From: Comamonas sp. 26
GTDB taxonomy: Bacteria; Pseudomonadota; Gammaproteobacteria; Burkholderiales; Burkholderiaceae_C
Direction of reading: 5' to 3'
Assembly (NCBI RefSeq): GCF_002754475.1
Contig: NZ_PEFL01000002.1
Location: forward strand, 738,881-802,880
DNA length: 64,000 bases
This document shows positions 3,376 to 63,419 of this stretch, piece by piece. Within the stretch, counting starts at the first letter, position 1. Each line of letters opens with the position of its first letter. The notes below the pieces were generated by a model, which had not been told where the DNA came from, searched no databases, and saw only the letters and a program-made list of their open reading frames with translations. The position numbers and the translations under genes are program-made.

Positions 3376-4362
3376 ATGCGCATGATCCGCCGCACTTTTG
3401 TCGCCACGGCCGTGGCCGCCACTGCAACGCTGGCTGCCGGCACTGCTTTTGCTCAGGGCAAGGAAGTCAAGATTGGCTATGCGCTGGCGATCAATTCGCA
3501 CTACGGTGCAGCCGCCAACGCCTGGGGCGAAGGCGTGGAAAAAGGCACGAACGGTGCCTACAAGTTCAAGCAATTCCCTGCATCCGCGCTGGGCGGCGAA
3601 CGCGAGCTGATCGAAGGTCTGCAGCTGGGCACTGTGGAAGCGGCCATCGTCTCCACCGGCGCACTGAGCAACTTTGTGCCTGACGTGGGCGTGGTGGATA
3701 TCCCCTTCCTGTTCCGTGACACACAACATGCACGCGCTGTGATGGACGGTGCTTTTGGTCAGGACCTGCTGGCCAAGTTCCAGAAGCGCGGTCTGATCGC
3801 TCTGGCCTGGGGCGAGCAAGGCTTTCGCCACCTGAGCAACAACAAGCATGCCGTCAATGGCGTGGCCGACCTCAAGGGTCTGAAGATTCGCGTGACCGAG
3901 AACCCCGTGCACATCACGGCCTTCCGCACACTGGGCGCATCGCCCACCCCCATGTCCTGGCCCGAGGTGATCGGCGCTCTGCAGCAGGGCACGATCGACG
4001 GCCAGGAAAATCCTGTGTCCGTGCTGGTATCCGCCAAGCTGTGGCAAGTACAAAAGCACCTGACTCTGACTTCGCACGTCTACGCCCCCATGGCACTGAT
4101 CGTGTCGCCCTCGTTCTGGGGCTCACTGAACGCCAGCCAGAAGGCCGCCTTCACCGAAGGTGCCAAGAAGGGTGCCATCGCATCGCGCGGCTTTGTGGAC
4201 ACCGTGGAGAAAAAGGGCGTTGAAGAAGCCAAGGCCAACGGCATGAAGGTCGTTGAAAAGGTGGATCAGGCCGCCTTCCGCACCGCGCTGGAGCCCGCCT
4301 ACAAGGAATACGCCAAGAAGTTTGGCCAGAAGACTCTGGACTCCATCACCAGCGTGAAGTAA
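3376..4362 (+). CDS. dctP: TRAP transporter solute-binding protein (DctP family)
   Basis: Periplasmic binding component of a tripartite ATP-independent transporter, which delivers organic acids to the DctQM membrane pair. The 328-residue length is normal. A Sec signal peptide with an Arg-rich start and hydrophobic core ends at about AFA (residue 26). The family pattern is clear: ALGGERELIEGLQLGTVE, the arginine-containing LKGLKIRVTENP that clamps the carboxylate in this family, and the GTIDGQENP motif. The ligand is unknown; 'dctP' is used in the family sense and does not imply C4-dicarboxylate. It is first of the PQM set, separated from the permeases by a hairpin at 4383. Confidence 0.9.
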   Translation: MRMIRRTFVATAVAATATLAAGTAFAQGKEVKIGYALAINSHYGAAANAWGEGVEKGTNGAYKFKQFPASALGGERELIEGLQLGTVEAAIVSTGALSNFVPDVGVVDIPFLFRDTQHARAVMDGAFGQDLLAKFQKRGLIALAWGEQGFRHLSNNKHAVNGVADLKGLKIRVTENPVHITAFRTLGASPTPMSWPEVIGALQQGTIDGQENPVSVLVSAKLWQVQKHLTLTSHVYAPMALIVSPSFWGSLNASQKAAFTEGAKKGAIASRGFVDTVEKKGVEEAKANGMKVVEKVDQAAFRTALEPAYKEYAKKFGQKTLDSITSVK

Positions 4363-4382
4363 TTCGCGTCTGAGTCCTTACA

Positions 4383-4404
4383 GCCGGTGGCTTGCGTCAC
4401 CGGC
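4383..4404 (+). terminator. Intra-operon hairpin between dctP and dctQ
   Basis: Inverted repeat gccggtg (4383-4389) and caccggc (4398-4404) followed by a weak ttctcc. Such structures after the binding-protein gene commonly stabilise or attenuate the message so that P is made in excess over QM. This function is inferred. Confidence 0.5.
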
Positions 4405-4525
4405 TTCTCCATCTGAGTGCCATGCGCATCAGACGTTAAGGACTGCGGGCACCCCGAATGGAAACTCATGCCTTGCGCGGCATGATGACCTCATCTCTTT
4501 TCTGCTCTTCAACAAGGCACTCACC

Positions 4526-5068
4526 GTGCACGCTGTTGACGCCCCATTTCCTATGCTTGATCGTATCGAACGCACTCTTGTCGCCGGCAACCGCTGGCTG
4601 CTCATCGTGCTGTTGCTGGCCATGGCCTGCATCGTTTTTGCCAATGTGGTGCTGCGCTACACCACGGGTGACTCCATTGTCTGGGCCGAAGAAGTGGCTC
4701 GTCACATGATGATCTGGGTCACCTTTCTGGGTGCCGGTCTCGTGCTGCGCTTTGGCGGCCATGTGGCCATCGACAATCTGCACCGCAGCGTCAGCACCCG
4801 CAGCGCCCAGTACATTCGCGGCTTTGTCGTCATCAGTCTACTCGTGTTCTTTGCCGTGATGACCGTCGCGTCTTCGCAGTATGTCTATGCCACGCGCTTC
4901 CAGACCACGGCGGCCACGGACATCCCCATTTCTTATATCTACGGCGCCATGCCTGTGGGCTTTGTGCTGATGTTTGTCCACCTGCTCTTCATTGCCCGTG
5001 GCTATATCAAAGCCGGCGACTTTGCCGAGTCCGACGAAATGGACGCCGACGCAGCCGCGTCCATCTAA
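4526..5068 (+). CDS. dctQ: TRAP transporter small permease (DctQ family)
   Basis: A 180-residue inner-membrane protein with four hydrophobic segments: LLIVLLLAMACIVFANVVLR, MMIWVTFLGAGLVLRFGGHV, FVVISLLVFFAVMTVAS and YGAMPVGFVLMFVHLLFIA. The signature VVLRYTTGDSIVWAEEVAR after helix 1 is characteristic of DctQ. The GTG at 4526 has an aagg about eight bases upstream. An in-frame ATG at 4553 would remove nine residues and is possible. It sits 21 bases before the large permease and is almost certainly co-transcribed with it. Confidence 0.87.
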   Translation: MHAVDAPFPMLDRIERTLVAGNRWLLIVLLLAMACIVFANVVLRYTTGDSIVWAEEVARHMMIWVTFLGAGLVLRFGGHVAIDNLHRSVSTRSAQYIRGFVVISLLVFFAVMTVASSQYVYATRFQTTAATDIPISYIYGAMPVGFVLMFVHLLFIARGYIKAGDFAESDEMDADAAASI

Positions 5069-5089
5069 GACAGCGCAGGTTCACACATC

Positions 5090-6376
5090 ATGGGTATCAC
5101 TTTATTTATTGCCATCATCGTCCTGCTGGTGCTGGGCTTTCCGGTGGCTTTTGCGCTGGCTATCTCGGCCGCTCTGGCAGTCTTCGTTGGCGGGCGCTAT
5201 CCCCAGCTCATCGTCTTCAAGGAAATGTTCACGGGAATCGACAGCTTTCCGCTGATGGCCGTGCCTTTCTTCATTCTGGCGGCCGAGCTGATGTCGGGCG
5301 GCGCTCTCACGGCCGTTCTGCTGCGCTTTGCGGCGCAGTTTGTCGGTCATCTGCGTGGCGGTCTGGGTTATGCCAACGTGCTGTCGCTGACCATGTTCTC
5401 GGGTATTTCCGGCTCGGCGCTGGCCGATGCTGCCGGCCCCGGCTCCATGATGGTCAAGATGATGGACAAGGCCGGTTATGGACGCCCCTACGCCGCCGCG
5501 CTGACGGCCAGCACCGCCATCGTCGGCCCCATCATTCCGCCTTCGGTGAGCATGATCATCTATGCGCTGCAGGATGAAAACGTGTCCGTGGGCGGCCTGT
5601 TCATGGCGGGCTTCATCCCCGGCATCCTGATTGCGCTGGCCATGGCGGCCGTCAACTGGTGGGTCTGCAAAAAGCGTGACTACCGCTCGACCGAGCCCCG
5701 TCCTTCGGCGCGCGAAATGTGGGTCAACAGTTTCAAGGCCATTCCCGCGCTGATGCTCATCGTGCTCATCGTCGTCGGTATCCGCTTTGGCATCTTCACG
5801 CCCACGGAAGCCTCTGTCGTGGCCGTGTTCTACGCACTGGTCTGCGGCAAATGGGTGTACCGCACGCTGCAATGGTCGGCACTGCCCGGCATTCTGGCGC
5901 GCTCGGCCATGCTCACGGCATCGGTGCTGCTGGTGATGGCGACTTCCGCAGCCTTTGCCTGGGTGCTGACGGTGGAAGGCATTCCGCAATACCTGTCCGA
6001 GCTGATCGTGAGCTGGCAGCTGTCGCCCGTCATGTTCCTGATCGCCGTGAACATTCTGCTGCTGGTCTTCGGCATTTTCATGGAGCCACTGCCCGGCGTG
6101 ATGATTCTGGTGCCCATTCTGGCCCCCATCGCTTTCAGCCTTGGCATTGATCCCACACACTTTGCCATGGTGGTGATCGTCAACCTCACGCTGGGCATGA
6201 TTACGCCGCCCGTGGGTGGCCTGCTGTTTGTGACCTCGGTCGCCACACGCGTCTCGATTACCGACCTGACGCGCGAGATGCCGCTGTTCCTGCTGGCGCA
6301 CTTTGTCGTGCTGTGCATGCTGACCTTCATTCCGCAACTGTCCACCTGGTTGCCGCATATGCTGGGCTTCCAGTAA
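5090..6376 (+). CDS. dctM: TRAP transporter large permease (DctM family)
   Basis: A 428-residue polytopic membrane protein of the ion-coupled transporter group, the Na+-coupled translocation subunit. Recognisable family stretches are LMAVPFFILAAELMSGG, LTMFSGISGSALADAAGPGSMM, ALTASTAIVGPIIPPSVSMI and the C-terminal LTLGMITPPVGGLLFVTS. The length is typical. It completes the P-Q-M order and ends before a strong terminator. Confidence 0.93.
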   Translation: MGITLFIAIIVLLVLGFPVAFALAISAALAVFVGGRYPQLIVFKEMFTGIDSFPLMAVPFFILAAELMSGGALTAVLLRFAAQFVGHLRGGLGYANVLSLTMFSGISGSALADAAGPGSMMVKMMDKAGYGRPYAAALTASTAIVGPIIPPSVSMIIYALQDENVSVGGLFMAGFIPGILIALAMAAVNWWVCKKRDYRSTEPRPSAREMWVNSFKAIPALMLIVLIVVGIRFGIFTPTEASVVAVFYALVCGKWVYRTLQWSALPGILARSAMLTASVLLVMATSAAFAWVLTVEGIPQYLSELIVSWQLSPVMFLIAVNILLLVFGIFMEPLPGVMILVPILAPIAFSLGIDPTHFAMVVIVNLTLGMITPPVGGLLFVTSVATRVSITDLTREMPLFLLAHFVVLCMLTFIPQLSTWLPHMLGFQ

Positions 6377-6544: not shown

Positions 6545-7192
6545 TCAGTGATCTACGTAGTCTGAATGCAGATGCCATGCAACAGCGGCTGCATAGCCAT
6601 CCGCCATGGCCACGGGTGTGCAATGCACGCATGCCAGAGAGGACTCGAGTTCTGCACTCCACTCAACCAGCCCTACACCCGCGCATTTCAAACGTGCTTC
6701 CTGCGCGGCCCATGCGCTTGCAAATGCTTTGAAAAACAGAGCATCTTGCGCAAAACCATCAAGCGCTTGGGCCATATTTGGTGCTAAAAAAATCTGAGCC
6801 ACTGCCTGTAATTCATGGCGTGATGCTCCAGCGTCCACTGCCTGAATATCCACGCCCACCGGCCCGCCACCATGCCAGGCCAGCAGAGCCAGCCCCGGCG
6901 CATGGCTGATGGAGCAAAAGGGCTGTGCAAGCCTCTCGCCACACAGCCACAGCTGCGGTGCCTCGTTGCGCTGGCTGCTGATCTGCAAAGCATCTTCAGG
7001 GCAACCCAGTTCCTTGGTTAGACAGCTGCGCAAGGCCGCACGGGCCTGCAATCGCGCCTGCTCTCTGTCATGGCTCAGGCCCTGCACCAGCCGCAACTGC
7101 GGGGCACTCTGCAGCGCTCCGCCCTCCACAACGCAGTGCTGAACCTGCACCGGCTTATGCCCGCTTGAGCGGCACGGGCGATGCAGGTGCAC
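6545..7192 (-). CDS. 4'-phosphopantetheinyl transferase (Sfp-type)
   Basis: This enzyme moves phosphopantetheine from CoA to a serine of carrier proteins. The ACPS-superfamily pair of motifs is present: GVDIQAVD with the Mg-binding aspartate, and FASAWAAQEARLKCAGVGL matching the W-x-x-K/Q-E-A signature. HAPGLALLAW matches the preceding conserved block. The reading frame from GTG at 7192 gives 215 residues and overlaps the end of the upstream NRPS-like gene by 38 bases. A GTG at 7150, just after the NRPS stop, would give 201 residues and is equally plausible. The overlap implies translational coupling, and the obvious substrate is that protein's carrier domain. Confidence 0.85.
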   Translation of the reverse strand: MHLHRPCRSSGHKPVQVQHCVVEGGALQSAPQLRLVQGLSHDREQARLQARAALRSCLTKELGCPEDALQISSQRNEAPQLWLCGERLAQPFCSISHAPGLALLAWHGGGPVGVDIQAVDAGASRHELQAVAQIFLAPNMAQALDGFAQDALFFKAFASAWAAQEARLKCAGVGLVEWSAELESSLACVHCTPVAMADGYAAAVAWHLHSDYVDH

Positions 7193-10100
7193 CTTGCCAG
7201 TGCGTGGCCGCAGGCAAAGCCTCGCCCTTCATCACTAATGTCAGCGGCCCCAGCTGCACGCCGTCGCCCACCGTTGCGCCATACAGCACGGTGCAGCGGG
7301 CACCCATGGTCACGCGGCTACCTATGAGTACCTGGTCGATCTTCATCACCCGGTCTTCAAACAGATGCGTCTGCGGGCAGCAAAGTGCATTGAGTTCGCT
7401 GTGCTCACCGATCTGCACACAGTCGTGCTCGGTGATGTCGGTGGTATCGAGCCAGGCACTGGAAGCAATGCGGCTGCCCATCAGGTTCAGGGCAAGCGGC
7501 AGCCAGGGCGTGCCGCGCAGATAGCGCAGGAAGTTGGGAACCGCCAGGCCTTCATACAGATTGGTAACCGCTTCAGAGAGCCAGACAAATGGCGTCCACA
7601 TGGGCACGGCTGTCTTGCTGTAGCGGCGCACGGCCAGCCATTTGAAGAGCGCCACCAGCACAAAGACCACCATGCCAAAGATCACCCCTGAAATAGCCAG
7701 ATCCAGCACCACAGCACCCCAGCGATCGGCAGAGGCCAGAGGCATAGCATCCAGCACCACTGCGTAACCCACGGCAATCACCAGCGCATGGGGCACGGCG
7801 ATGCGGAAGGCCTCCACCAGCCCGCGCCCCACGCGCCGCCACAGCGATGGCGCAAACGTCAGATGCTCAGGGTAGCCTTGAGCCACCTCGCGTGCAGGCA
7901 GGTTGATGGCGGGTGAACCCAGCCAGGTATCGCCACTCTGCATATCGGCATTGCGCGGCACGGCCGTCATCACGCCGACGAGCACGTTCTCGGGGATGGT
8001 CGATCCATCAGGCACATAAGCCCCGTTGCCAATAAAACTGCGACGCGAAACGACCGTGGGTTTGACCGTCATCCAGCCGCCGTCGATATGTTCATCGCCC
8101 AGCATCACCGCATCGGCCACAAAGCATTCATCGCCCAGCGTCAGCATGTCGGGCACCACGCCCAAAGCGGTAGACAACTCCGTCTGCTTGCCCACCTTGG
8201 CACCCAGCAGCCGGTACCAGGTCGATGAATACACCGTGGCATAAATGCCGTGCAGCGTACTCAGGCTGGCCTCCTGAATCTGGTTGACCATCCACTTGCC
8301 CAGATAGCGGCGACTGTGAATGGACCAGGTGCCCGCCTTGGTGCGTGGCAAAAACAGATAGCGCACCAAGGCCGCTACCAGCACCGTGCAGGCCACCAGC
8401 ACCGCGCTGGCAGGCAGGGCCAGCAGGAAGAATTTAATGAAGCGCAGCACAAAGGCACCGCCCGCATCGACAATGCCTTGCTCCAGCAGCGGCCTGACCG
8501 AGATTTCTTCAATATCCAGAATATCGATCAGCATGAAGGTCGGGAAAACCGGCATGAAGAACAGCGTGGCAACCAGCAGGCCGCCAGTCAGATAGACCAG
8601 CATTTCGACGGCCTTGCGCAGGCGACCCACCAGGTGGCGCGGCTGCAGGCTGGCAGGATCGAAACGACCCACTTCTCGCGCGGGCGACCCCGCCCACACG
8701 CTGCGCGCAGGCAACACCGTGCCATCGGCCAGTGCGGACTGGCCTTCCAGATGCGCCCAGTCCTCCAGCCGCGTATTGCCTTCAATCACCACATAGGAGC
8801 CAATGCAGACTTCATTGCCAATGTCGATGCGGCCCAGCACCAGCTCGCCGCCTTCAACGCGGGCATTTTCAAGACTGACCGCATTGCCTATGCTCGCACC
8901 GTCGCCAATGCGCAGCAGATCAGGGGCACGCACCGTCATCGAACCCAGATTGCACTCATGCCCCACCTTCGCGCCCAGCATGCGCAGCCACATCGGGTGC
9001 AGTGATGAGCCGGTGATCATGGCCGAAGGCACGGCGTCCACCAGCCTGTCGGCCAGCCACCAGCGGAAATACGTCAAACCCCACAGCGGGTAGCGGCCCG
9101 GCTTCAATCGCCCTGCGATCAGCCACTTCCCGGCACCGGCAATCGCGAATTCGGCCAGCGTGGCAATGGCAAATGCCAGCACCGACATGGCGACGGCAAA
9201 CGGCACGGAGTCCATCTCATCGCCGGTGAAGAAATGGTAGGTGAAAAACGGCGCCAGCCACTGGGCCATCTTGATCAGCACCAGCAGCGGAATCACCAAT
9301 GCCTGCGCCGCCCCGCAGCGCCAGCGTCGCCATGCGGAGTGAATGCGGAAAGGTCGCTCCTGCGCCGCAGCATCTCCCGCCAACATGACCGCCTGCAAGG
9401 CCTCGGCAATCAAACCGATTTTGCGCTGCTGATAAATCGTGCTCACGGTCGCCTGCGCAAAGCGCGGGTCAGCGCGCAGCTGCGAAATCAAACGTGCGGC
9501 AAACAGCGAATGCCCGCCAAGATCGCTGAAAAAATCCAGCCCACGGCGCACTGGCTGTCCGGGGAAAAGTTGAGCCAATGCGGCAAACAGCAGCTCCTCT
9601 GCTGGAGTCTCTGGTGTATCGGAATCAGACAAGTCCACCGCCGTGGACAAGGGCATGGCCTTGAGCGCCTTTCGGTCGATCTTGCCCGAGGTCAGGCGCG
9701 GCATCTCGCTCAAGGCATCAAAGCGGGCGGGCACCATATAGGGCGGCAGCCGCTCGGCCAATGCGCTGCGCAGCGCCGATGACGTTGGCGGCTCATCGGT
9801 GGGCACGTAAAAGGCCACCAGTTGATCCATGCCATCATCTTTGCGCAGCAGCACCGCCGTGGTGCCCACGCCCGGTTGCTGCGCCAGCACGGCTTCAATC
9901 TCGCCCAGCTCCACGCGAAAGCCGCGAATTTTGACCTGATCGTCGGCCCGGCCCAAGCAGTGAATCTGCCCCTGTTCATCAATGCGAGCCAGATCACCCG
10001 TGCGGTACAGGCGCGCGTCCTGCGGTCCGTTCGCCCAGGGGTTGAGCAGAAACTTCTCGGCCGTCAGTTCTGGCCGGCCCAGATAGCCTGCCGCCACACC

Positions 10101-11285
10101 GGGGCCGGTAATGCATAGCTCGCCCACCTCGCCCTGCGGCAGACCGTACAGCGCGGGTGCTGTGCCTGCGACAAAGCTGTCCGCCTCAATCACCTGCACC
10201 ACCAGCATGGCGTAATTGGGCAGGGGCGAGCCAATCGTCACGGGCTCGCCCGCCTTGAGTTCAGCCAGACTGGCCGATACCGTGGCCTCGGTAGGCCCGT
10301 AGGTGTTGAACATCTGACGGGACGCATTGGCCCAGCGCACCACCAGTGTTTCAGGGCACATCTCGCCGCCCAGATTGATGAGACGCAGACTGGGCACGTC
10401 CTGAGCGAACAGCGCCAGCAGCGTGGGCACGGCATGCAGCACCGTGACCTGCTGCGCAATCAGCGCCTGGGGCAGGGCCTCGGGGTCGCCAGCAATCTCG
10501 CGCGGAGCCAGCCACAGAGTCGCGCCCACCAGATAGCTGATCCAGATTTCCTCAAACGACATGTCAAAGGCCACCGAGAAGCCTTGATACACCTTGTCGC
10601 TCTGGCGCACGCCAAGGCGTGCATTCTCACTGCGCAAAAAATGGCAGATGCTGCCCTGCGTGATGGCAATACCTTTGGGCTTGCCCGTGGAGCCGCTGGT
10701 GTAGATCACATAGGCAGGGTGACTTGGCAGTGCTCCCTCACGGCGGCGCAGATCAACACCTTGGGGCAATGCCGTAAGCAGATCCACTTCTGAAAATATC
10801 TGCGCCGTAATGCTCTGCTGCGCCTGTACTGCGTGCGTATGCTGCTGCGCAATCAATAGCGCCTTGGCTTGTGCATCTTCAAGGCAGGTGGCAATGCGCT
10901 CCAGCGGAGTTTCAGCATCAAAAGGCAGCCAGGCCGCCCCCGTCTTGGCAATGGCCAGTTGCAGGGTCAACAGCTCAATGCCGCGCGGTAGCCACAGGCC
11001 CACCATGTCACCGGGGCGTATGCCGGCCTCGATCAGCCGGTGGGCCGCAAGGCTGGCCTCTGCATCCAGCTGAGCATAGCTGCGTTGGCGCAGCTGACTG
11101 CCCTGGCCCTCAATCAGCACAATCTGCTCAGGGTGGGCAGCAGCCGTTGCTTCAAAAATATCTGCCAGCACCTCATGGCGCAGCAAGTCCGGCCTTTCAG
11201 GCCCGCGCAAGACAACCGTTTCAGACATGGGTTCAGCAGCAACCCCGGATGCAACCACACACCCGGACACCGTGGTGCCACTCAT
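7155..11285 (-). CDS. Pls-type single-module NRPS-like membrane synthetase
   Basis: A 1376-residue protein with adenylation domain, carrier domain and a membrane C-terminal half, but no condensation or thioesterase domain. Adenylation motifs run from about 30 to 540: YTSGSTGKPKG near 195, FNTYGPTEATV, YRTGDLARIDE, GRADDQVKIRGFRVELGEIE and the A10-type LTSGKIDRKALK. The carrier serine is in DLGGHSL near 591. Then come six hydrophobic helices in three pairs (about 645-720, 890-975, 1165-1220), alternating with three hexapeptide-repeat (left-handed beta-helix) domains. This is the layout of epsilon-poly-L-lysine synthetase Pls, in which the C-terminal domains join residues one after another. The A-domain pocket read by hand begins D-M-E, as in ornithine-type codes, suggesting a basic amino acid. 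The start at 11285 has GGAG close upstream. Confidence 0.85.
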   Translation of the reverse strand: MSGTTVSGCVVASGVAAEPMSETVVLRGPERPDLLRHEVLADIFEATAAAHPEQIVLIEGQGSQLRQRSYAQLDAEASLAAHRLIEAGIRPGDMVGLWLPRGIELLTLQLAIAKTGAAWLPFDAETPLERIATCLEDAQAKALLIAQQHTHAVQAQQSITAQIFSEVDLLTALPQGVDLRRREGALPSHPAYVIYTSGSTGKPKGIAITQGSICHFLRSENARLGVRQSDKVYQGFSVAFDMSFEEIWISYLVGATLWLAPREIAGDPEALPQALIAQQVTVLHAVPTLLALFAQDVPSLRLINLGGEMCPETLVVRWANASRQMFNTYGPTEATVSASLAELKAGEPVTIGSPLPNYAMLVVQVIEADSFVAGTAPALYGLPQGEVGELCITGPGVAAGYLGRPELTAEKFLLNPWANGPQDARLYRTGDLARIDEQGQIHCLGRADDQVKIRGFRVELGEIEAVLAQQPGVGTTAVLLRKDDGMDQLVAFYVPTDEPPTSSALRSALAERLPPYMVPARFDALSEMPRLTSGKIDRKALKAMPLSTAVDLSDSDTPETPAEELLFAALAQLFPGQPVRRGLDFFSDLGGHSLFAARLISQLRADPRFAQATVSTIYQQRKIGLIAEALQAVMLAGDAAAQERPFRIHSAWRRWRCGAAQALVIPLLVLIKMAQWLAPFFTYHFFTGDEMDSVPFAVAMSVLAFAIATLAEFAIAGAGKWLIAGRLKPGRYPLWGLTYFRWWLADRLVDAVPSAMITGSSLHPMWLRMLGAKVGHECNLGSMTVRAPDLLRIGDGASIGNAVSLENARVEGGELVLGRIDIGNEVCIGSYVVIEGNTRLEDWAHLEGQSALADGTVLPARSVWAGSPAREVGRFDPASLQPRHLVGRLRKAVEMLVYLTGGLLVATLFFMPVFPTFMLIDILDIEEISVRPLLEQGIVDAGGAFVLRFIKFFLLALPASAVLVACTVLVAALVRYLFLPRTKAGTWSIHSRRYLGKWMVNQIQEASLSTLHGIYATVYSSTWYRLLGAKVGKQTELSTALGVVPDMLTLGDECFVADAVMLGDEHIDGGWMTVKPTVVSRRSFIGNGAYVPDGSTIPENVLVGVMTAVPRNADMQSGDTWLGSPAINLPAREVAQGYPEHLTFAPSLWRRVGRGLVEAFRIAVPHALVIAVGYAVVLDAMPLASADRWGAVVLDLAISGVIFGMVVFVLVALFKWLAVRRYSKTAVPMWTPFVWLSEAVTNLYEGLAVPNFLRYLRGTPWLPLALNLMGSRIASSAWLDTTDITEHDCVQIGEHSELNALCCPQTHLFEDRVMKIDQVLIGSRVTMGARCTVLYGATVGDGVQLGPLTLVMKGEALPAATHWQGAPASPVPLKRA

Positions 11286-11361: not shown

Positions 11362-14300
11362 TCACTGCCGTGCCAGAACCGGAGCCAATGCCTTGCCTGT
11401 GTGGGTACCGATCCTGACCAGCTCCTCTGGCGTGCCCTCAGCCACGATGCGGCCGCCGTCATTGCCGCCTTCGGGGCCCAGGTCAATGACCCAGTCCGCC
11501 TCGGCAATCACGTCCAGGTCATGCTCGATGACGATAACGCTATGGCCACCATCCACCAGTCTGTGTAGCACGTGGATGAGCTTGTCCACATCCGCCATGT
11601 GCAGGCCGACTGTCGGCTCATCCAGCACATACAGCGTATGCGGTGCCTTCTGGCCCCGGCGACCCACTTCGTCGCGCACCTTGGTCAGTTCGGTCACCAG
11701 CTTGATGCGCTGGGCCTCTCCACCGCTGAGCGTAGGCGATGGCTGGCCCAGCGTGAGATAGCCCAGCCCCACATCCTTCAGGAGTTGCAGCGGCTGCGCA
11801 ATGGAAGGCATGGCGGCAAAGAACTCCACCGCCTCATCGACCTCCATCTGCAGCACATCACCGATGTTCTTGCCGCGCCAGGTCACGGCCAGCGTCTCGG
11901 GGTTAAAGCGTGCGCCGTGGCAGACCTCGCAAGCCACTTTCACATCGGGCAAAAAGCTCATTTCGATGGTGCGCACGCCCTGACCTTCACAGGCCGGGCA
12001 GCGGCCTTCGCCGGTGTTGAAGCTGAAGCGCCCCGCCGCATAGCCTCGCGCCTTGGCCTCCAGCGTCTCGGCAAACAGCTTGCGAATCGTGTCCCAGAAA
12101 CCGATATAAGTGGCCGGGCAGGAGCGCGGCGTCTTGCCAATCGGTGTCTGATCGACTTCCAGCACCCGGTCCACGGTCTCGAAGCCCTTGATCCCCTTGC
12201 AGCCGACCAGCTTGGGCGACTGTCCCGCATCCATGGCATCGCGCCCGGCCTTGGTCGATCGCTGCTGCACCCAGGCCGCCACATTGGTCAGCAACACATC
12301 ACGCGCCAGCGTGGACTTGCCTGAGCCAGACACGCCCGTCACAGCCACCAGTCGCTTGAGCGGCACGCGGGCATCGACGTTCTGCAGATTGTGCAGATGA
12401 GCCCCAAGCACGCTGAGCCAGCGCAGTGCATTGCTGTCCTCAGCCACTACATTTTCAATAGCTGCGACCGCCTTCTTTTTCTTGGCTTTAGATGGTTTTA
12501 TCTCTGAAACCGCTACATCAACGACGCTAGCAGCTTCTGCATTGATAGAAGACGACTCTGCAGCCGGTGCTGCTGGCGGCTCGCCCTCGCCCACCCACAG
12601 TCGTGGCTTGAAGGGGTGGCGCATGGCGTGCAGCAGGTAGCGGCCGGTGACGGATTCCTCGGCGGCCATGATGTCGGCCACCGAGCCTTGAGCAACCAGA
12701 CGGCCGCCACGAATACCGGCACTGGGGCCGATATCGATGATGTGATCGGCACGGCGAATCGTGTCCTCGTCATGCTCCACCACCACCAGCGTATTGCCTT
12801 TGTCGCCGAGCTTGTGCAGGGCGTTGAGCAGGATCTGGTTGTCGCGTGCATGCAGGCCAATCGTGGGCTCATCCAGCACATAGCAGACGCCCTGCAGATT
12901 GCTGCCCAGCTGGGCGGCGAGGCGAATACGCTGCGCCTCGCCGCCACTGAGCGTAGGCGCGCCACGGTCCAGCGTCAGATAGTTGAGGCCAACCTCTTCG
13001 AGGAATTCAAGACGGCTCTGAATTTCAGGAATCAGGTCGCGTGCAATATCACTTTCACGACCCGACAGCGCCAGCTGCTGAACCCAGCGGCGCACATCGG
13101 TCACCGAGAGCTGCGCCACATCGGTAATACCCACGTCGTGAAATTTCACGGCCCGCGCCGTGGGGTTCAGTCGCGTGCCATGGCACTTAGGGCATGCCAC
13201 CTCGGCGAGATCTTCCACTTCCTGGCCCTCGAACTTCACTTCGCGGCCCCGGTTGTCTTCGGCCAGCAAGGTGTCGTCATAGACCTTGCGCTGATCCTTG
13301 GTCAGCTTCACGCCCGTGCCCACGCAGTCGGGGCACCAGCCGTGTTTGCTGTTGTACGAGAACAGACGCGGGTCCAGCTCGGCATAGCTGGTGGCACAAA
13401 CCGGGCAGGCGCGCTGGGTGGAGAACACCTGCAGCGCACCAATACCCGCCGTGCTCTGCCCGCCCTGCATGGCATCGGCCAGATTTTCCAGGCCTGACAG
13501 CACATGCAGCACGCCCTTGCCGATCTCCAGCGCCTGACGCAGATGAGCGCGCAGCTCTTTCTCGGTGGCAGCAGTCACCGCCACGCTGGCCACGGGCAGC
13601 TCGATCGTGTGCTCCTTGAAGCGGTCGATGCGCGGAAAGCCCGTGGTCGGCAGAAACTCGCCATCCACCCGCAGATGGGTGTAGCCCTTGGGTCTGGCCC
13701 AGTCGGCCAGCTCGGTATAGACGCCCTTGCGGTTGACGACCAGCGGCGCCAGCAAGCCAATGGTCTGACCACGGAAGTTCGTCATCAGCTGCGCGGCAAT
13801 GCTTTCCTCGGTTTGCGGCTGCACGACGGCATCGTCGTGAATACAGTGCTGAATGCCCAGTTTGACGTAGAGCAGGCGCAGGAAATGCCAGACCTCGGTG
13901 GTTGTGCCCACCGTGGACTTGCGCCCACCGCGTGACAGACGCTGCTCAATCGCCACCGTGGGAGGAATGCCATACACCGCATCAACTTCGGGCCGGCCTG
14001 CGGGCTGGACGATGGAGCGTGCATAGGCATTAAGCGATTCGAGATAGCGGCGCTGGCCTTCGTTGAACAGAATGTCGAACGCCAGCGTGGACTTGCCCGA
14101 GCCGGAAACACCCGTCACCACATTGAACTTGCCACGCGGAATATCCACGCTCAGCGACTTGAGGTTGTGCTCTTTGGCGTTGACGATTTCAATCGCATTT
14201 TTGGCCTGTGGCGCTTGTGCAGCCTTGGCTCTGCGCTCTGGTTTGTAGAGCATGGGCGCGACTTCACGCACCGCCTCGCCGCCCACCCCCATGGCCAGGT

Positions 14301-17300
14301 CGTATTCACGCAGGGCCTGCGCCGTGTGCGAAGCCTTCACATGGCGCACATCTTCAGGCGTCCCCTGGGCGACGATCAGACCGCCACCGTCGCCGCCTTC
14401 GGGGCCCAGATCAATCAACCAGTCGCTGGCTCGAATCACGTCCAGGTTATGCTCGATGACGATCAGCGAATGCCCGGCTTCGAGCAGCTTGCGCAGCGCA
14501 CGCATGAGCTTGGCGATGTCTTCAAAGTGCAGGCCCGTGGTGGGCTCGTCAAACAGGAACAGCGTGCCTTTTTTGGCCAGCGACTGCTTGCTTTTGGACT
14601 GCGCCTTGGCGGCCTCGGCCAGAAAGCCTGCCAACTTCAAACGCTGGGCTTCGCCGCCCGACAAGGTAGGCACGGGCTGGCCCAGCTTTACGTACTCCAG
14701 CCCCACATCAACAATGGGCTGCAGCGCACGAATCACATCACGGTCCTGCGAAAACAGCAAGGCCGCTTCGGCGACGGTCAAATCCAGCACATCGGCCACA
14801 TTCAAGGACTGACCGTTACGCTCGATTTTCACTTCCAGAATTTCGGGGCGATAGCGTGTGCCATTGCAGTCGGGACAGCGCAGATACACGTCCGAGAGAA
14901 ACTGCATCTCCACATGCTCAAAGCCCGAGCCACCGCAGGTAGGGCAGCGCCCGTCACCGCTGTTGAAGCTGAACTTGGAAGCGGTGTAACCGCGCTGGCG
15001 CGACAGCGCTGCCACGGCAAACAGCTCGCGCAGCGCATCCCAGGCGCCCACATAGCTGACCGGGTTGGAGCGCGCCGTTTTACCAATGGGCGACTGGTCG
15101 ACAAACATCACATCGGCCAGATGATCCGCCCCCATCAGGCGTTCAAATGCGCCTGCCGCATCGGTGGGTTTGCCAAAGTGGCGCATCAGTGCGGGCACCA
15201 GCACATCCTGAATCAGCGTGGATTTGCCAGAGCCTGAAACGCCAGTAATCGTCACCAGGCGCTGCAGCGGGAAGTCCACGCTGATGTCTTGCAAGTTGTG
15301 CTCGCGCGCACCTTCCAGAATCAGACGCGGCGTGGAATCAAGCACCATGCGCTTGAGCCCGAAACCGACTTGCTTGCGCCCCCCCATATAGGCACCGGTC
15401 AGGGTGTCAGCAGTGCGCAGCTCATCGGGTGTTCCGTCAAACACGATATTGCCGCCGCGCGCACCCGGGCCGGGGCCCATGTCGATCACGCGGTCAGCGG
15501 CAAACATGACGGCCGGGTCATGCTCCACCACCACCAGCGTGTTGCCTGCATCGCGCAGGCGCTGCATGGCTTCGGTAATACGTTCCATGTCGCGCGGATG
15601 CAGGCCAATGGACGGCTCATCAAGCACAAATAACGTGTTGACCAGCGAGGTGCCCAAGGCCGTGGTCAGGTTGATACGCTGCACCTCACCGCCGCTGAGC
15701 GTACGGCTCTGACGGTCCAGTGTGAGATAGCCAATACCCACGTCGCACAGATACTGCAGGCGCGTCATGACTTCTGCGTGCAGCATTTTGAGCGCCTGCG
15801 CCTCGCCATCGTTCTTATCGGCATCGGCGCTTGGCGCCAGCTGAGCAAAGAATTCGCGCAGCCGCGTAATGGGCAGTCGCATCAAATCATGGAGGCACAG
15901 GCCAGGTAGACCTTCGAGTTGCTCACGGCTCCAGTTCACGCCCTGCGGCATAAAGCGCTGGTATCGGCCACTGTCATCATGGGCGGGAAGCACGGCATCA
16001 GCAGCCTGCTTGCCACCGATGCGCCAGAGCAAGCTCTCGGTCTTTAGGCGTGCGCCGCCGCAAGTGGGGCATTCGGTGTAGCTGCGGTACTTGGACAGCA
16101 GCACCCGGATATGCATCTTGTAGGCCTTGCTTTCCAAATATTCAAAGTAGCGGCGAATGCCGTACCAGGTCTGGCTCCACTTGCCGTTCCAGTTGGGTGA
16201 GCCTTCTATCACCCAGTCTTTTTGTTCTTTGGTCAGCTTGGCCCAGGCGGTATCGCGCGGAATGCCTTCGGCCTCGGAGTGGCGCATCAGGTCATCCTGA
16301 ATTTCCTTCCACGCCGGGGTCTGAATCGGCTTGATGGCACCCGTGCGCAGCGTGAGCTTGTCGTTAGGGATCACCAAGCCCCAGTCCACCCCGATCACGC
16401 GGCCAAAACCGCGGCAGGCATCGCAGGCGCCCACCGCCGAGTTGAAGGAGAACAGCGAGGGAATGGGCTGCAGGTAAGTCAGATTGCTTTCGGGGCAATG
16501 CAGGCCTTGCGAGAATTTCCACAACTCAGGTTCGGCCTCGACTCCACTCTCAGGTAGCACATAGACCGTGAGACGGCCACTGCCACGCTTGAGACCGACT
16601 TCAATCGCCTCCATGGCTCGCACACGCTCCGCCTTGCTGAGGCGAAAACGATCAGCAATCACGTCCAGCACCTTGATTTTTTCAGGTGCCGCTTTGGTCT
16701 TCTTGCCCTTGGCGGGAACGTCCTCACCCGCTGGCAAAGCACGCTCTACCTCTCGCTCGGCCTGAACCTTGGTGAAGCCGCTGGCAGACAGCCATTGCTC
16801 CACTTCTTCTGCAGTCGTATTGGCAGGCAGCTCGACCGGAAAGGTGATGGCAATACGCGGGTCGCCCGCCGCTTCGCAGCGCTGTGCCAAGGCGGCATAA
16901 ATGGTGTCTGCCGTATCCTGGCTGACGGGCAGTGCCGTCTCTCGGTCAAACAGACTTCCAGCACGCGCAAACAGCAGCTTGAGGTGGTCGTTAATCTCCG
17001 TCATCGTTCCCACGGTAGAGCGGGAGTTACGCACGGGATTGGTCTGGTCAATCGCAATCGCGGGGGGTACGCCTTCGACCTTGTCCACCGCAGGTTTGTC
17101 CATGCGATCCAGAAACTGGCGCGCATAGGCCGAGAAGGTCTCTACATAGCGGCGCTGGCCCTCGGCGTACAGCGTATCGAACACAAGGCTGGACTTGCCC
17201 GAGCCGCTGGGGCCCGTGACCACGGTCAGCTCACCGGTGCGGATATCGATGTCCAGATTGCGAAGATTGTGCTGGCGAGCACCACGGATACGAATCAGGC

Positions 17301-17310
17301 CCTGCGTCAT
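11362..17310 (-). CDS. uvrA: Double-length excinuclease ABC subunit A
   Basis: UvrA is the damage-recognising ATPase of nucleotide excision repair. This protein is 1982 residues, about twice the usual 940. It contains two complete UvrA units: Walker A motifs at about 33 (GPSGSGKSS), 690, 1067 and 1658 (GVSGSGKST), and four ABC signatures LSGGE(V/A)QR near 537, 885, 1455 and 1860. Zinc-finger pairs are present in both halves (CPTCGG, CPDCNG, CPACEG, CEVCHG). The junction is near residue 1040. A low-complexity linker rich in Ala, Ser and Lys (about 1585-1640) precedes the last ATPase lobe. Long UvrA forms like this are known in betaproteobacteria and are often called UvrA2. A separate normal uvrA elsewhere in the genome is likely but not visible here. 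Confidence 0.9.
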   Translation of the reverse strand: MTQGLIRIRGARQHNLRNLDIDIRTGELTVVTGPSGSGKSSLVFDTLYAEGQRRYVETFSAYARQFLDRMDKPAVDKVEGVPPAIAIDQTNPVRNSRSTVGTMTEINDHLKLLFARAGSLFDRETALPVSQDTADTIYAALAQRCEAAGDPRIAITFPVELPANTTAEEVEQWLSASGFTKVQAEREVERALPAGEDVPAKGKKTKAAPEKIKVLDVIADRFRLSKAERVRAMEAIEVGLKRGSGRLTVYVLPESGVEAEPELWKFSQGLHCPESNLTYLQPIPSLFSFNSAVGACDACRGFGRVIGVDWGLVIPNDKLTLRTGAIKPIQTPAWKEIQDDLMRHSEAEGIPRDTAWAKLTKEQKDWVIEGSPNWNGKWSQTWYGIRRYFEYLESKAYKMHIRVLLSKYRSYTECPTCGGARLKTESLLWRIGGKQAADAVLPAHDDSGRYQRFMPQGVNWSREQLEGLPGLCLHDLMRLPITRLREFFAQLAPSADADKNDGEAQALKMLHAEVMTRLQYLCDVGIGYLTLDRQSRTLSGGEVQRINLTTALGTSLVNTLFVLDEPSIGLHPRDMERITEAMQRLRDAGNTLVVVEHDPAVMFAADRVIDMGPGPGARGGNIVFDGTPDELRTADTLTGAYMGGRKQVGFGLKRMVLDSTPRLILEGAREHNLQDISVDFPLQRLVTITGVSGSGKSTLIQDVLVPALMRHFGKPTDAAGAFERLMGADHLADVMFVDQSPIGKTARSNPVSYVGAWDALRELFAVAALSRQRGYTASKFSFNSGDGRCPTCGGSGFEHVEMQFLSDVYLRCPDCNGTRYRPEILEVKIERNGQSLNVADVLDLTVAEAALLFSQDRDVIRALQPIVDVGLEYVKLGQPVPTLSGGEAQRLKLAGFLAEAAKAQSKSKQSLAKKGTLFLFDEPTTGLHFEDIAKLMRALRKLLEAGHSLIVIEHNLDVIRASDWLIDLGPEGGDGGGLIVAQGTPEDVRHVKASHTAQALREYDLAMGVGGEAVREVAPMLYKPERRAKAAQAPQAKNAIEIVNAKEHNLKSLSVDIPRGKFNVVTGVSGSGKSTLAFDILFNEGQRRYLESLNAYARSIVQPAGRPEVDAVYGIPPTVAIEQRLSRGGRKSTVGTTTEVWHFLRLLYVKLGIQHCIHDDAVVQPQTEESIAAQLMTNFRGQTIGLLAPLVVNRKGVYTELADWARPKGYTHLRVDGEFLPTTGFPRIDRFKEHTIELPVASVAVTAATEKELRAHLRQALEIGKGVLHVLSGLENLADAMQGGQSTAGIGALQVFSTQRACPVCATSYAELDPRLFSYNSKHGWCPDCVGTGVKLTKDQRKVYDDTLLAEDNRGREVKFEGQEVEDLAEVACPKCHGTRLNPTARAVKFHDVGITDVAQLSVTDVRRWVQQLALSGRESDIARDLIPEIQSRLEFLEEVGLNYLTLDRGAPTLSGGEAQRIRLAAQLGSNLQGVCYVLDEPTIGLHARDNQILLNALHKLGDKGNTLVVVEHDEDTIRRADHIIDIGPSAGIRGGRLVAQGSVADIMAAEESVTGRYLLHAMRHPFKPRLWVGEGEPPAAPAAESSSINAEAASVVDVAVSEIKPSKAKKKKAVAAIENVVAEDSNALRWLSVLGAHLHNLQNVDARVPLKRLVAVTGVSGSGKSTLARDVLLTNVAAWVQQRSTKAGRDAMDAGQSPKLVGCKGIKGFETVDRVLEVDQTPIGKTPRSCPATYIGFWDTIRKLFAETLEAKARGYAAGRFSFNTGEGRCPACEGQGVRTIEMSFLPDVKVACEVCHGARFNPETLAVTWRGKNIGDVLQMEVDEAVEFFAAMPSIAQPLQLLKDVGLGYLTLGQPSPTLSGGEAQRIKLVTELTKVRDEVGRRGQKAPHTLYVLDEPTVGLHMADVDKLIHVLHRLVDGGHSVIVIEHDLDVIAEADWVIDLGPEGGNDGGRIVAEGTPEELVRIGTHTGKALAPVLARQ
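12455..12550. repeat. Repeat-like sequence inside the uvrA linker
   Basis: Contains caatagctgc (12459-12468) and cgctagcagc (12528-12537) flanked by attgataga. These resemble the core halves of the dispersed repeat seen in intergenic regions. The stretch encodes the low-complexity linker of the last UvrA lobe in frame. The similarity is judged by eye and the element is degenerate. Confidence 0.3.
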
Positions 17311-53407: not shown

Positions 53408-54070
53408 TCAGGCGCGCTTGCGGGTTGCGACTTTTTCAATCGCCTGGTTATAGACTTCTTCCATGCCACCCACGTCAGGCACCGTCATTTCGAGGTTGGT
53501 AATGTGACCATTGTTAAGGCCATAACACCAACCGTGCAGCGTGACCTTCTGACCACGCGCCCAGGCATCCTGCATCACCGTTGATTGGGCCACATTGACC
53601 ACCTGCTCAATAGCGTTCAGCTCGCACAGCGCATCGTGACGGAACTGGGTGGATATGCCTTCCAGCAGCTTGATGTGCTTGTCACGCACGTCACGCACGT
53701 GGCGAGTCCAGTTATCCACCAGACCCAGACGCAGGTTATTCAGTGCGGCATACACGCCGCCGCAGCCGTAATGGCCGACGACCATCAAGTGCTCAATCTT
53801 CAGGTGATCGACGGAGTATTGAATGGTTGACAGGCAATTCAGATCGCTGGGAACCACCACGTTGGCCACGTTACGGTGCACAAATACCTCGCCAGGCTCC
53901 AGACCTGTAATCTGGTTCGCTGGGACGCGGCTGTCAGAGCAACCGATCCACATGTACTTGGGCTTTTGCTGCGCCATCAGTCCGGTAAAGAAACCAGGAC
54001 GATCACGCTCCATCTGGTCTGCCCATTCGCGGTTGTGGACAAACAATTCTTCGATGGAGGTCGTTGTCAT
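53408..54070 (-). CDS. can: Beta-class carbonic anhydrase
   Basis: A 220-residue enzyme that interconverts CO2 and bicarbonate. The zinc ligands are visible: MWIGCSDSRVPANQITGLEP gives Cys and the Asp-Arg pair, and VVGHYGCGGVYAAL gives His and the second Cys. EVFVHRNVANVV is between them. The length matches E. coli Can (220). Placed next to isovaleryl-CoA dehydrogenase, it could supply bicarbonate for methylcrotonyl-CoA carboxylase (inferred). Confidence 0.95.
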   Translation of the reverse strand: MTTTSIEELFVHNREWADQMERDRPGFFTGLMAQQKPKYMWIGCSDSRVPANQITGLEPGEVFVHRNVANVVVPSDLNCLSTIQYSVDHLKIEHLMVVGHYGCGGVYAALNNLRLGLVDNWTRHVRDVRDKHIKLLEGISTQFRHDALCELNAIEQVVNVAQSTVMQDAWARGQKVTLHGWCYGLNNGHITNLEMTVPDVGGMEEVYNQAIEKVATRKRA

Positions 54071-54123
54071 GAAGCTATCCTTCTTTTTTTGGTGGTTGAA
54101 AGAATGGCGCAGCTCTTGCTTTT

Positions 54124-55311
54124 TCAGCAGGTTTCAGCAAACAATTCGCGCCCAATCAACATGCGGCGAATTTCGCTGGTGCCGGCACCAATCTCATAGA
54201 GTTTCGCATCTCGCCACAGTCGGCCGAGCGGATACTCGTTGATATACCCATTGCCACCATAGATTTGTACGCCCTCGCCAGCCATCCAGGTGGCCTTCTC
54301 GGCACACCAGAGAATGACGCTGGCGCAGTCTTTACGGACCTGACGGACATGGTCAGTTCCCAGAAGATCGAGATTTTTAGCGACCGTATAAGCAAAAGAT
54401 CGGCCCGCTTGCAGCACGGTGTACATGTCTGCCACCTTGCCCTGGATGAGCTGAAACTCTCCAATACTCTGGCCAAATTGCTTGCGGTCATGGATGTAAG
54501 GAACCACGTTATCCATCACGCTTTGCATGATTCCCAGTGGTCCGCCTGTGAGCACGGCACGCTCGTAGTCCAGTCCGCTCATCAGCACCTTGGCCCCCAT
54601 GTTCAGGCCGCCAAGGATGTTTTCAGCCGGCACCTCCACGTTCTGGAACACCAACTCACCTGTGTGGCTGCCACGCATACCCAGCTTGTCAAGCTTTTGC
54701 GCAACCGAAAAACCGGGCATGCCCTTCTCGATCAAAAAGGCCGTCACTCCGCGCGCGCCCATTTCAGGTTCACTCTTGGCGTAGACCACCAGCGTGTCTG
54801 CGTCGGGGCCATTGGTAATCCACATCTTGCTGCCATTGAGCAGGTAATAGCCGCCCTTGTCCTCAGCCTTGAGCTTCATGCTGATGACATCTGAGCCAGC
54901 ACCCGGCTCGCTCATAGCCAGAGCGCCCACATGCTCGCCGCTGATCAGCTTAGGCAGGTACTTGGCTTTTTGCGCTTCAGTGCCGTTACGGTTGATCTGG
55001 TTCACACACAAATTGCTGTGCGCGCCATAGGACAGGCCCACGGAAGCACTGGCACGCGAAATTTCCTCCATCGCAACCATGTGGGCGAGATAGCCCATAT
55101 TGGCGCCGCCATACTGCTCCGAGACGGTGATGCCCAGCACTCCCAGCTCACCAAACTTGCGCCATACATCCATGGGGAACTGGTCAGTACGATCAATTTC
55201 AGCCGCACGCGGCGCAATCTCGCTCTGCGCAAAGTCACGCACGGCATCGCGCAGTGCATCAATATCTTCACCGAGCTGAAAGTTCAGTCCTGGCAAATTG
55301 GCAAGGCTCAT
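54124..55311 (-). CDS. liuA: Isovaleryl-CoA dehydrogenase
   Basis: Oxidises isovaleryl-CoA to 3-methylcrotonyl-CoA, the step before MCC. It has 395 residues. ATG at 55311 follows GGAGACAACC. The FAD region is [17 protein letters not shown] and [12 protein letters not shown]. The catalytic glutamate sits at the family-specific place in [16 protein letters not shown], as in isovaleryl-CoA dehydrogenase and unlike other acyl-CoA dehydrogenases. The C terminus [20 protein letters not shown] then [16 protein letters not shown] is typical. It is separate from the rest of the leucine pathway by about 17 kb. Confidence 0.95.
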
Positions 55312-55358
55312 GGTTGTCTCCTGTAGGTATTAGTCTGGCTGGTCTCAGTTGTGAATCT

Positions 55359-55817
55359 CTAGTTATTGATGCCCTCACGATGCTGTACACACATCAAGGT
55401 GCAACTCATCGTGGCAATCAATTTTTCTTTTCCCTGATCAATGGCAAACGCTTTGCCCTCAGATACGGTGATCGTGCGCCCCGGCTTGATAACGCGGCCT
55501 TCCATGCGAAAGCGCTGGCCCTTGGCAGGTGCCAATAAATTGATTTTGAATTCGATCGTAAGCACCGCTGCATCGGCGGGCATCAGCGTCAGCCCTGCAT
55601 AGCCGCAGGCTGAATCCAGCGCGGTGGACACCATGCCGGCGTGTAAAAAGCCATGTTGCTGGGTCAAGCCGGACGCCCAGTCCAGACAGATATCCACAGT
55701 GCCAGGCTCGATACGGGTCAGCTCGGCCCCAAGTGTGCCCATGGCTCCTTGGCAGGAAAAGCTTTCCCTCACCCGGCTAGCGAAGTCCAAAACCTCATCC
55801 GCACCCAAAGCTGACAT
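55359..55817 (-). CDS. PaaI-type hotdog thioesterase
   Basis: A 152-residue hotdog-fold acyl-CoA thioesterase. From ATG at 55817 it opens MSALGADEVLDFASRV. LTQQHGFLHAGMVSTALDSA carries the HGGxxxxLxD-like helix with the catalytic aspartate. TIEFKINLLAPAKGQRFRMEG is the second family block. It lies between liuR and liuA on the same strand, probably in the same transcript; release of CoA from branched intermediates is a plausible role. Confidence 0.87.
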   Translation of the reverse strand: MSALGADEVLDFASRVRESFSCQGAMGTLGAELTRIEPGTVDICLDWASGLTQQHGFLHAGMVSTALDSACGYAGLTLMPADAAVLTIEFKINLLAPAKGQRFRMEGRVIKPGRTITVSEGKAFAIDQGKEKLIATMSCTLMCVQHREGINN

Positions 55818-55847
55818 TGGCAACTCCCAGCAGCAACGCTTTATCAA

Positions 55848-55869
55848 TTTACGTTTACGTAAACGTCAA
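55848..55869. promoter_or_regulatory. Candidate LiuR operator upstream of the thioesterase gene
   Basis: tttacgtttacgtaaacgtc contains a perfect tttacgtaaa palindrome and the repeated acgt spacing of the LiuR motif. It lies about 30 bases before the thioesterase start, so repression of the thioesterase-liuA unit is likely. Confidence 0.65.
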
Positions 55870-56271
55870 TTATGCGGTATTTTTGCTCTCACTCTTCTTC
55901 AACAAGCTACGCGCCTCTTTCTCCTGCTCACGCACCTCTTCCAGCGTCACCTGCAGATCAGCCATCTGCCCTTCAAGCTGTTTGCGGTGCACAGCCAGCA
56001 CATCCAGAAATTTGCGCAACTGCACGCCTGTATCGCGCGGGCTGTCATACATATCGATGATTTCCTTGGCCTCGGAAAGCGACAAGCCCAGTCGCTTCGC
56101 TCGCAAGGTCAGGCGCAGACGTGCGCGGTCTCGGGCCGAATACACACGATTACGCCCGCCAGTTCCAGAGCGTTCGGGCTGCAGCAAGCCCATATCCTCA
56201 TAAAAACGAATCGCCCGCGTGGTGAGATCAAACTCTTTGGCAAGATCGCTGATGGTGTAACTGGTCAACAT
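55870..56271 (-). CDS. liuR: MerR-family regulator LiuR
   Basis: A 133-residue MerR-type repressor of branched-chain amino-acid catabolism. The helix-turn-helix is YTISDLAKEFDLTTRAIRFY and EDMGLLQPERSGTGGRNRVY, then a wing with RARLRLTLRAKRLGLSLSEA, and a C-terminal coiled coil rich in Glu/Lys/Leu. No metal-binding cysteines are present, as in LiuR-type regulators. Located at the end of the liuA cluster, with operator-like palindromes on both sides. The ligand is presumably a pathway CoA ester (inferred). Confidence 0.9.
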   Translation of the reverse strand: MLTSYTISDLAKEFDLTTRAIRFYEDMGLLQPERSGTGGRNRVYSARDRARLRLTLRAKRLGLSLSEAKEIIDMYDSPRDTGVQLRKFLDVLAVHRKQLEGQMADLQVTLEEVREQEKEARSLLKKSESKNTA

Positions 56272-56349
56272 GATTCTGTCTGGGTGAAGTCTTGCATCAC
56301 TCAGGCGACTGCAAAGAGTGGCCCGGTCCCTAAAATGCTTTTATAAAAC

Positions 56350-56370
56350 TGACGTTTACGTTAACGTCAA
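56350..56370. promoter_or_regulatory. Candidate LiuR operator between liuR and the MBL-fold gene
   Basis: gacgtttacgttaacgtc (within 56351-56368) contains a perfect gacgttaacgtc core and resembles the site at 55848. Lying between divergent liuR and the plus-strand gene at 56392, it could control both. Confidence 0.6.
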
Positions 56371-56391
56371 TGCTAAACGATATCCTGCACC

Positions 56392-57477: not shown

Positions 57478-57486
57478 CTTCTTTAT

Positions 57487-57515
57487 AAAAAGAGAGCGCT
57501 ATGCGCTCTCTTTTT
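57487..57515 (+). terminator. Rho-independent terminator after the MBL gene
   Basis: A perfect 13-bp stem aaaaagagagcgc (57487-57499) and gcgctctcttttt (57503-57515) with a 3-base loop and T tract. Confidence 0.9.
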
Positions 57516-57615
57516 ATGGGTTTGCAGGTTGTTAGGCTCTGGAGCCCAATCACAGCCAGCACAAGCTGCTCTGCTTTTTGATGACCCAGTCTTCAACGCT
57601 TTTGCATTCCGCAAA

Positions 57616-57652
57616 TAAAAAACCCCGTAATCTTTCGATTACGGGGTTTTTC
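57616..57652 (-). terminator. Terminator of the first rrn operon
   Basis: A stem of about 15 bp, aaaaaccccgtaatc (57618-57632) with gattacggggttttt (57637-57651), around loop tttc, just past the 5S gene. Symmetric A and T runs make it functional on both strands. Confidence 0.9.
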
Positions 57653-57661
57653 TCTGTAAGA

Positions 57662-57776
57662 GCCTGACGATGACCTACTTTCACACGGGAACCCGCACTA
57701 TCATCGGCGCTAAGTCGTTTCACGGTCCTGTTCGGGATGGGAAGGAGTGGTACCAACTTGCTATGGTCATCAGGCA
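57662..57776 (-). rRNA. rrf: 5S ribosomal RNA
   Basis: The minus strand reads from TGCCTGATGACCATAGCAAG to GTAGGTCATCGTCAGGC, the standard betaproteobacterial 5S ends, about 115 bases. It carries the loop CCATCCCGAACAGG. Frames called on this strand are rRNA shadows. An identical copy lies at 63420. Confidence 0.95.
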
Positions 57777-57954
57777 TAAACTTTTTGTCAGATTGATCGC
57801 TCTTCGATTAACTTCTTAATCAAAGCTCACTTTCAATCCAACGAATTCATAGAGTCTCGATCAGCTTATTCGATTGCGCCTTTTTGGCATAACTTGAATG
57901 ATCACTTGCATGATTCATTCTGTCTTTTCATTTCTGAGCTAAACCCAAAGTTAT
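57777..57954 (-). other. 23S-5S spacer of the first rrn operon
   Basis: An A/T-rich transcribed spacer. The side next to 23S includes half of the 23S processing stem (57946-57963). The same sequence is present in the second operon. Confidence 0.7.
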
Positions 57955-60834
<2,880 letters not shown>

Positions 60835-61252: not shown

Positions 61253-61328
61253 TGGTGGAGGATGACGGGATCGAACCGACGACCCCCTGCTTGCAAAGCA
61301 GGTGCTCTCCCAGCTGAGCTAATCCCCC
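61253..61328 (-). tRNA. tRNA-Ala (anticodon TGC)
   Basis: 76 bases on the minus strand: acceptor GGGGGAT, D-arm TAGCTCAGCTGGGAGAGC, anticodon loop TTTGCAA, T-arm GGTTCGATCC and CCA encoded at the 3' end. Usual position in the rrn spacer. Confidence 0.97.
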
Positions 61329-61357
61329 AGGATCCTCTTGCACTGGCATTGGAATCT

Positions 61358-61534: not shown

Positions 61535-63067
<1,533 letters not shown>

Positions 63068-63410: not shown

Positions 63411-63419
63411 GGCGTAAGA

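Follow-up and report, generated by a model that had tools for sequence, protein, structure and literature searches.

Genes and domains at the locus

We analysed a 64,000-nucleotide stretch of Comamonas sp. 26 (contig NZ_PEFL01000002.1, positions 738,881 to 802,880; hereafter the window), in which mechanical calling of open reading frames (ORFs) delimits, on the minus strand, a 1376-codon ORF at 7155-11285 followed by a 215-codon ORF at 6545-7192 (Table 1). The host genome measures 4.7 Mb in 3 contigs; its nearest named relatives at the sequence level are Comamonas records (80-87% identity), and up to 97% is seen with genomes assigned to the same genus. By its profile match the larger ORF is a synthetase of the Pls/PosA family, and the smaller one encodes a putative 4'-phosphopantetheinyl transferase. 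On the sequence evidence set out below, we consider it likely that the first is an orthologue of PosA making delta-poly-L-ornithine, the product being a prediction, and that the second is its activating transferase.

The family assignment comes from TIGR02353 (Pls/PosA), which the synthetase matches over residues 660-1368 with 772 bits against a cut-off of 423.1 (E 5.6e-232). Pfam hexapeptide families are matched in its C-terminal part, and no condensation or thioesterase family is found among the 7 Pfam families at E <= 1. At that threshold the PF00550 carrier model was not reported for the synthetase, and was reported for the Acinetobacter baumannii homologue; the carrier domain is recognised by its DLGGHSL motif, whose Ser593 is kept in 138/138 aligned loci. 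In the hydropathy profile, the C-terminal half has six hydrophobic regions and the adenylation domain a further, weak one. The best of five AlphaFold2 models of residues 644-1376, with a predicted local distance difference test (pLDDT) score of 83.3 and a predicted template modelling score of 0.87 (the other four having pLDDT of 79.2 to 67.6), places helix pairs at model residues 8-42/51-81, 245-267/298-335 and 505-542/546-576, with short strands after each. As modelled, the C-terminal part is made of three homologous repeats, each with two membrane helices and a beta-helix. A first-pass annotation, made from the letters alone, had proposed precisely this Pls-type layout, with one adenylation domain, one carrier domain, six helices and three hexapeptide domains; hydropathy and model agree with it. 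Beta-helix domain 3 bears a Gln1305-x-His1307 motif (His at 7365-7367), the His being present in 135/138 rows and the other 3 having gaps.

Table 1. Features of the locus in window coordinates; residues are those of ORF 7155-11285.
Feature	Position	Strand	Basis or remarks
PosA-type poly-amino-acid synthetase, likely true extent	7155..11228	-	1357 aa from Met20 of ORF 7155-11285; TIGR02353 772 bits and start by relatives
Adenylation domain, residues 44-535	9681..11156	-	PF00501 44-402 and PF13193 462-535; code DMEHILTVSK
Carrier (PCP) domain, approximate limits	9426..9644	-	DLGGHSL motif; phosphopantetheine Ser593 at 9507-9509
Membrane helix pair 1, residues 651-685, 694-724	9114..9335	-	Model and hydropathy
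Left-handed beta-helix domain 1, ~residues 756-882	8640..9020	-	Model
Membrane helix pair 2, residues 888-910, 941-978	8352..8624	-	Model and hydropathy
Beta-helix domain 2, ~residues 1027-1121	7923..8207	-	Model; homology of its repeat with repeat 1, BLASTP E 7e-15
Membrane helix pair 3, residues 1148-1185, 1189-1219	7629..7844	-	Model and hydropathy
Beta-helix domain 3, ~residues 1269-1373	7167..7481	-	Model, lower confidence; homology of its repeat with repeat 1, E 3e-12
4'-Phosphopantetheinyl transferase, 201 aa from GTG 7150	6545..7150	-	PF01648 and WAAQEARLK motif; mechanical ORF 6545-7192
uvrA, upstream	11362..17310	-	1982 aa
TRAP transporter set, downstream	3376..6376	+	Substrate-binding and large permease genes, 180-aa ORF between

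Among the structure matches listed, the best ones for beta-helix domain 1 are hexapeptide acetyltransferases, and there is no whole solved C-terminal assembly of PosA or Pls. The acyltransferase fold predicted for the first unit, and the embedding of the C-terminal part in the membrane, would also suit an enzyme that hands single ornithines, or a few of them, on to a different acceptor (a membrane lipid, a polysaccharide or a polyamine, for example) and makes no free homopolymer. We regard this as very unlikely, since the same TIGR02353 assembly is that of Pls and PosA, which make free homopolymers.

The substrate pocket

The specificity code obtained by computed alignment, D241 M242 E245 H284 I303 L305 T328 V336 S337 plus K535, consists of the same residues as the hand-made reading of the first-pass annotation, DMEHILTVS(K). 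Asp241 (10563-10565) and Glu245 (10551-10553) are each kept in 138/138 aligned loci. The code is identical at 10/10 positions to that of the A. baumannii homologue (L141), to which the synthetase is 53.1% identical overall, 60.9% in the adenylation core and 75.5% in the A4-A5 stretch. The best PDB matches among those listed are 8g95/8g96 and 8g97/8g98; in the 8g97 alignment the pocket residues are the same as in the Comamonas synthetase, and the A4-A5 stretch of 8g97 is that encoded by the A. baumannii locus. Membership in the Pls/PosA family and a pocket suited to a basic amino acid, as had been predicted, are supported by the independent results of the TIGR02353 match, the code and the clade shared with A. 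baumannii. Ornithine is the leading candidate substrate, because the ten code residues are those of a homologue whose adenylation domain matches these PDB chains.

The same kind of enzyme could nevertheless make a polymer of another diamino acid (lysine or 2,4-diaminobutyrate) or of arginine. Indeed, Asp241 and Glu245 persist through all 138 rows despite varied other pocket residues, so that the acidic residue alone leaves the substrate unfixed. However, the full code is that of the A. baumannii homologue, it differs at 5/9 read positions from that of 7wew, the epsilon-poly-L-lysine synthase chain (DAESLVTVVK, read by hand via alignment with the Streptomyces homologue L145), and the codes of the sister clade are of the DLED type. 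We therefore judge a substrate other than ornithine unlikely, and lysine was set aside as first choice since the pocket differs from that of 7wew.

The transferase and its pairing with the synthetase

The transferase scores 28.9 bits with PF01648, for which the cut-off is 25, over positions 1-68 of the 111 in the profile; its HetI match is weak (34.5 bits against 370). Two of its putative metal-site residues, the Asp of GVDIQ and the Glu of WAAQEA, are present, and a Gln stands two residues after the Asp. Of 89 downstream frames, 2 have Glu as the last residue of the first GxDxx match, and 6 lack such a match.

Pairing was counted among 111 DMEH-type loci (L148 and L159 left out), 108 of which have at least 800 bases downstream; the search was confined to the 2.6 kb downstream of the synthetase, and some loci offered less. 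A transferase lies on the same strand within this distance in 87/108 loci (26/38 after dereplication) and adjoins the synthetase in 83. Outside the DMEH-type set, 2/27 rows have a transferase match, and one of these (L150) is without the W-x3-E-x3-K motif. In the A. baumannii record, the synthetase is followed by a 361-aa protein (L141:10430-11515) with no Pfam match at E <= 1.

PF01648 is matched three times in the host genome. One match is full-length and lies in an AcpS-like frame of 134 aa, another is partial, in a frame of 135 aa, and the third is the window transferase. No condensation domain was found in it at E <= 0.001, a search that gave matches in 4/14 control genomes. The synthetase is thus the sole evident peptide synthetase of this genome and, because of this lack of condensation domains, would be the natural partner of the transferase.

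Relatives, distribution and phylogeny

In a scan of the genome collection, 570 stretches proved to encode a relative. The best 80 of them were retained and inspected; the weaker ones beyond these may include ordinary synthetases. The genera found include Comamonas, Janthinobacterium, Massilia and Undibacterium. The description of the synthetase as an orphan thus holds within its genome, which has no condensation domain and no second TIGR02353 match over the cut-off, but not taxonomically. The TIGR02353 cut-off is passed by 26/398 evenly drawn Pseudomonadota genomes (the window's own included) and by 1/14 control genomes.

The exact ten-residue code is found in 108/139 aligned rows, query included. 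Left out before this count were partial loci or ordinary nonribosomal peptide synthetases (L027-L030), transferase loci (L175-L177), short loci (L111-L140, 26 places of which were refetched, longer, as L149-L174) and two loci with a frame length outside 1200-1750 (L146, L157). The rows are partly redundant: L001 stands for the window's own genome, L025/L156 are one gene, and many of L002-L026 and L031-L110 are apparently species shared by two collections, so that the dereplicated tree offers the fairer count. In this tree of 61 rows, a clade of 40 rows (support of 100 in the SH-like approximate likelihood ratio test, SH-aLRT) unites beta- and gammaproteobacteria, including the query and A. baumannii, and all its members are DMEH-type. 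A DLED clade of 12 rows, with Azospirillum and Rhizobium among them, is sister to it. The tree was built by a quick method and rooted on L145, the Pls-like Streptomyces row, and with long branches outside the clade its deep order is unsure. Family members with other codes were also seen (L158, L174, L144 and L147, with DVEA, DSEC, DFEY and DFEA), and may use other substrates.

Predicted product and mechanism

The following steps can be proposed for a PosA-like synthetase in Comamonas. The neighbouring transferase would load phosphopantetheine onto Ser593, and the adenylation domain would activate L-ornithine, with its alpha-amino group held by Asp241 and its side-chain amine by Glu245. The activated ornithine would be carried as a thioester. 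At the membrane-embedded beta-helix repeats, perhaps at Gln1305-x-His1307 of domain 3, this thioester would be attacked over and over by a delta-amine, supplied by another ornithine or by the growing chain. The outcome would be a delta-linked poly-L-ornithine, presumably exported, made with neither condensation nor release domains.

Several points weigh against this proposal. Its product is predicted by comparison with PosA, the delta-poly-L-ornithine synthetase. The chains 8g95-8g98, the adenylation domain of PosA, are labelled in the PDB only as 'Dimodular nonribosomal peptide synthase'. An identical code leaves room for a different acceptor or a side-reaction. Sfp has a third acidic metal ligand where the Comamonas transferase has Gln. 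For 21/108 DMEH-type loci no transferase was found in the downstream stretch searched. These include three Variovorax, three Collimonas and two Undibacterium loci as well as that of A. baumannii (L141), in whose record none was found downstream of the synthetase. Finally, the DMEH rows L148 and L159 fall outside the 40-row clade and the code label has to change three times on the tree; the four-letter code alone is therefore no marker of the clade.

Gene starts and genomic setting

The synthetase most likely starts at 11228 rather than at 11285, because three of the twelve relatives compared (L006, L007 and L012) have a stop codon one codon upstream of the residue aligned with Met20, because the 95% identical L003 is without ATG at the upstream start position, and because relatives conserve the sequence from Met20 onward, with MSETVVLRGPERPDLL and its counterparts. 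Against this choice, a GGAG lies a short way 5' of the ATG at 11285. For the transferase, the frames of L002, L005 and L031 read V/M-Q-V/I where the window has GTG 7150, that of L003 reads VQI and that of L017 is less clear. This codon is therefore probably the start, and the two genes would lie four bases apart. An overlap of the transferase gene with the 3' end of the synthetase, reported in the first-pass annotation, is not required and was set aside; its 38 bases are real only for the mechanically longest ORF (6545-7192).

Upstream, uvrA lies 76 bases from the synthetase ORF. The TRAP transporter set downstream is convergent with the transferase gene and for this orientation was set aside as part of the system, though in some relatives it lies nearby. 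In L181, L184 and L185, the end of the transporter set comes ~1 kb after uvrA.

In the genus survey, a full or nearly full-length synthetase occurs in 25/53 genomes (split over two contigs in G046), with a partial one in G015, and in 1 of the 47 other genomes surveyed. Of the 25 gene-bearing genomes of the genus, 14 have it at most 7 kb from the long uvrA; in the other 11 it is distant (~300 kb in G008, for example) or on a different contig. In G013 (L188 518-1501), only ~1 kb separates transporter end and uvrA, and this gap has no window match of more than 100 bases; this apparent pair-less site would fit a gain or a loss of the synthetase-transferase pair. Such patchiness within the genus, together with the G013 site, could be taken as a sign of a decayed or silent gene without product. 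However, the frame is open, its catalytic motifs are intact, and two other genomes of the genus encode synthetases with 95% and 97% protein identity; decay is hardly credible.

The UvrA encoded next to the pair is about double the usual length. Another part of its frame aligns at 49% with the last 399 residues, which suggests a fusion of two UvrA units. A uvrA frame of ~2000 codons is found in 48/53 genus genomes, and a separate UvrA-like frame of 1031 codons exists in the host genome (G000:C3:251790). Towards the right end of the window (54000-64000), the GC content falls from ~60% to ~50%.

Significance

We would extend the ornithine reading, with confidence evenly divided, to a broader one: delta-poly-L-ornithine may be commonly produced in Betaproteobacteria and have been overlooked there, with a general envelope or anti-competitor role. 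Two genes, for the synthetase and a dedicated phosphopantetheinyl transferase, would form a self-contained cassette for it, present even in species with no other evident peptide synthetase, such as the Comamonas host. If the ornithine reading is right, environmental Comamonas, Janthinobacterium, Massilia, Undibacterium and their relatives might supply a cationic polymer with possible antimicrobial activity, and the adjoining transferase would make the pair easy to express. The relatives would also form a large set of natural variants for studying chain growth and termination by a membrane-bound beta-helix assembly, an open question for the whole Pls/PosA family.

Comparison with known systems

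The transferase resembles the Sfp/HetI-type enzymes in its PF01648 match over the cut-off and its W-x3-E-A-x2-K motif, and differs from them by a Gln, instead of a Glu, two residues after the conserved Asp. The Azospirillum and Rhizobium proteins L142 and L143 belong to the same family as the synthetase and form part of the sister clade, but have DLED-type codes. Pls, the epsilon-poly-L-lysine synthetase, is likewise of this family, TIGR02353 matching the Streptomyces homologue L145, which is 29.2% identical in the C-terminal part. The Comamonas synthetase, with DMEHILTVSK, does not have the lysine pocket (DAESLVTVVK) of 7wew, the Pls adenylation domain, of Streptomyces origin. This type of enzyme is already known from Acinetobacter, and its presence in Comamonas is a sound and mostly expected find. 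Unlike the Comamonas pair, PosA of A. baumannii has no adjoining transferase in the record examined, but the two synthetases share the whole architecture, the ten specificity residues, the TIGR02353 match, a well-supported clade and 53.1% overall identity.
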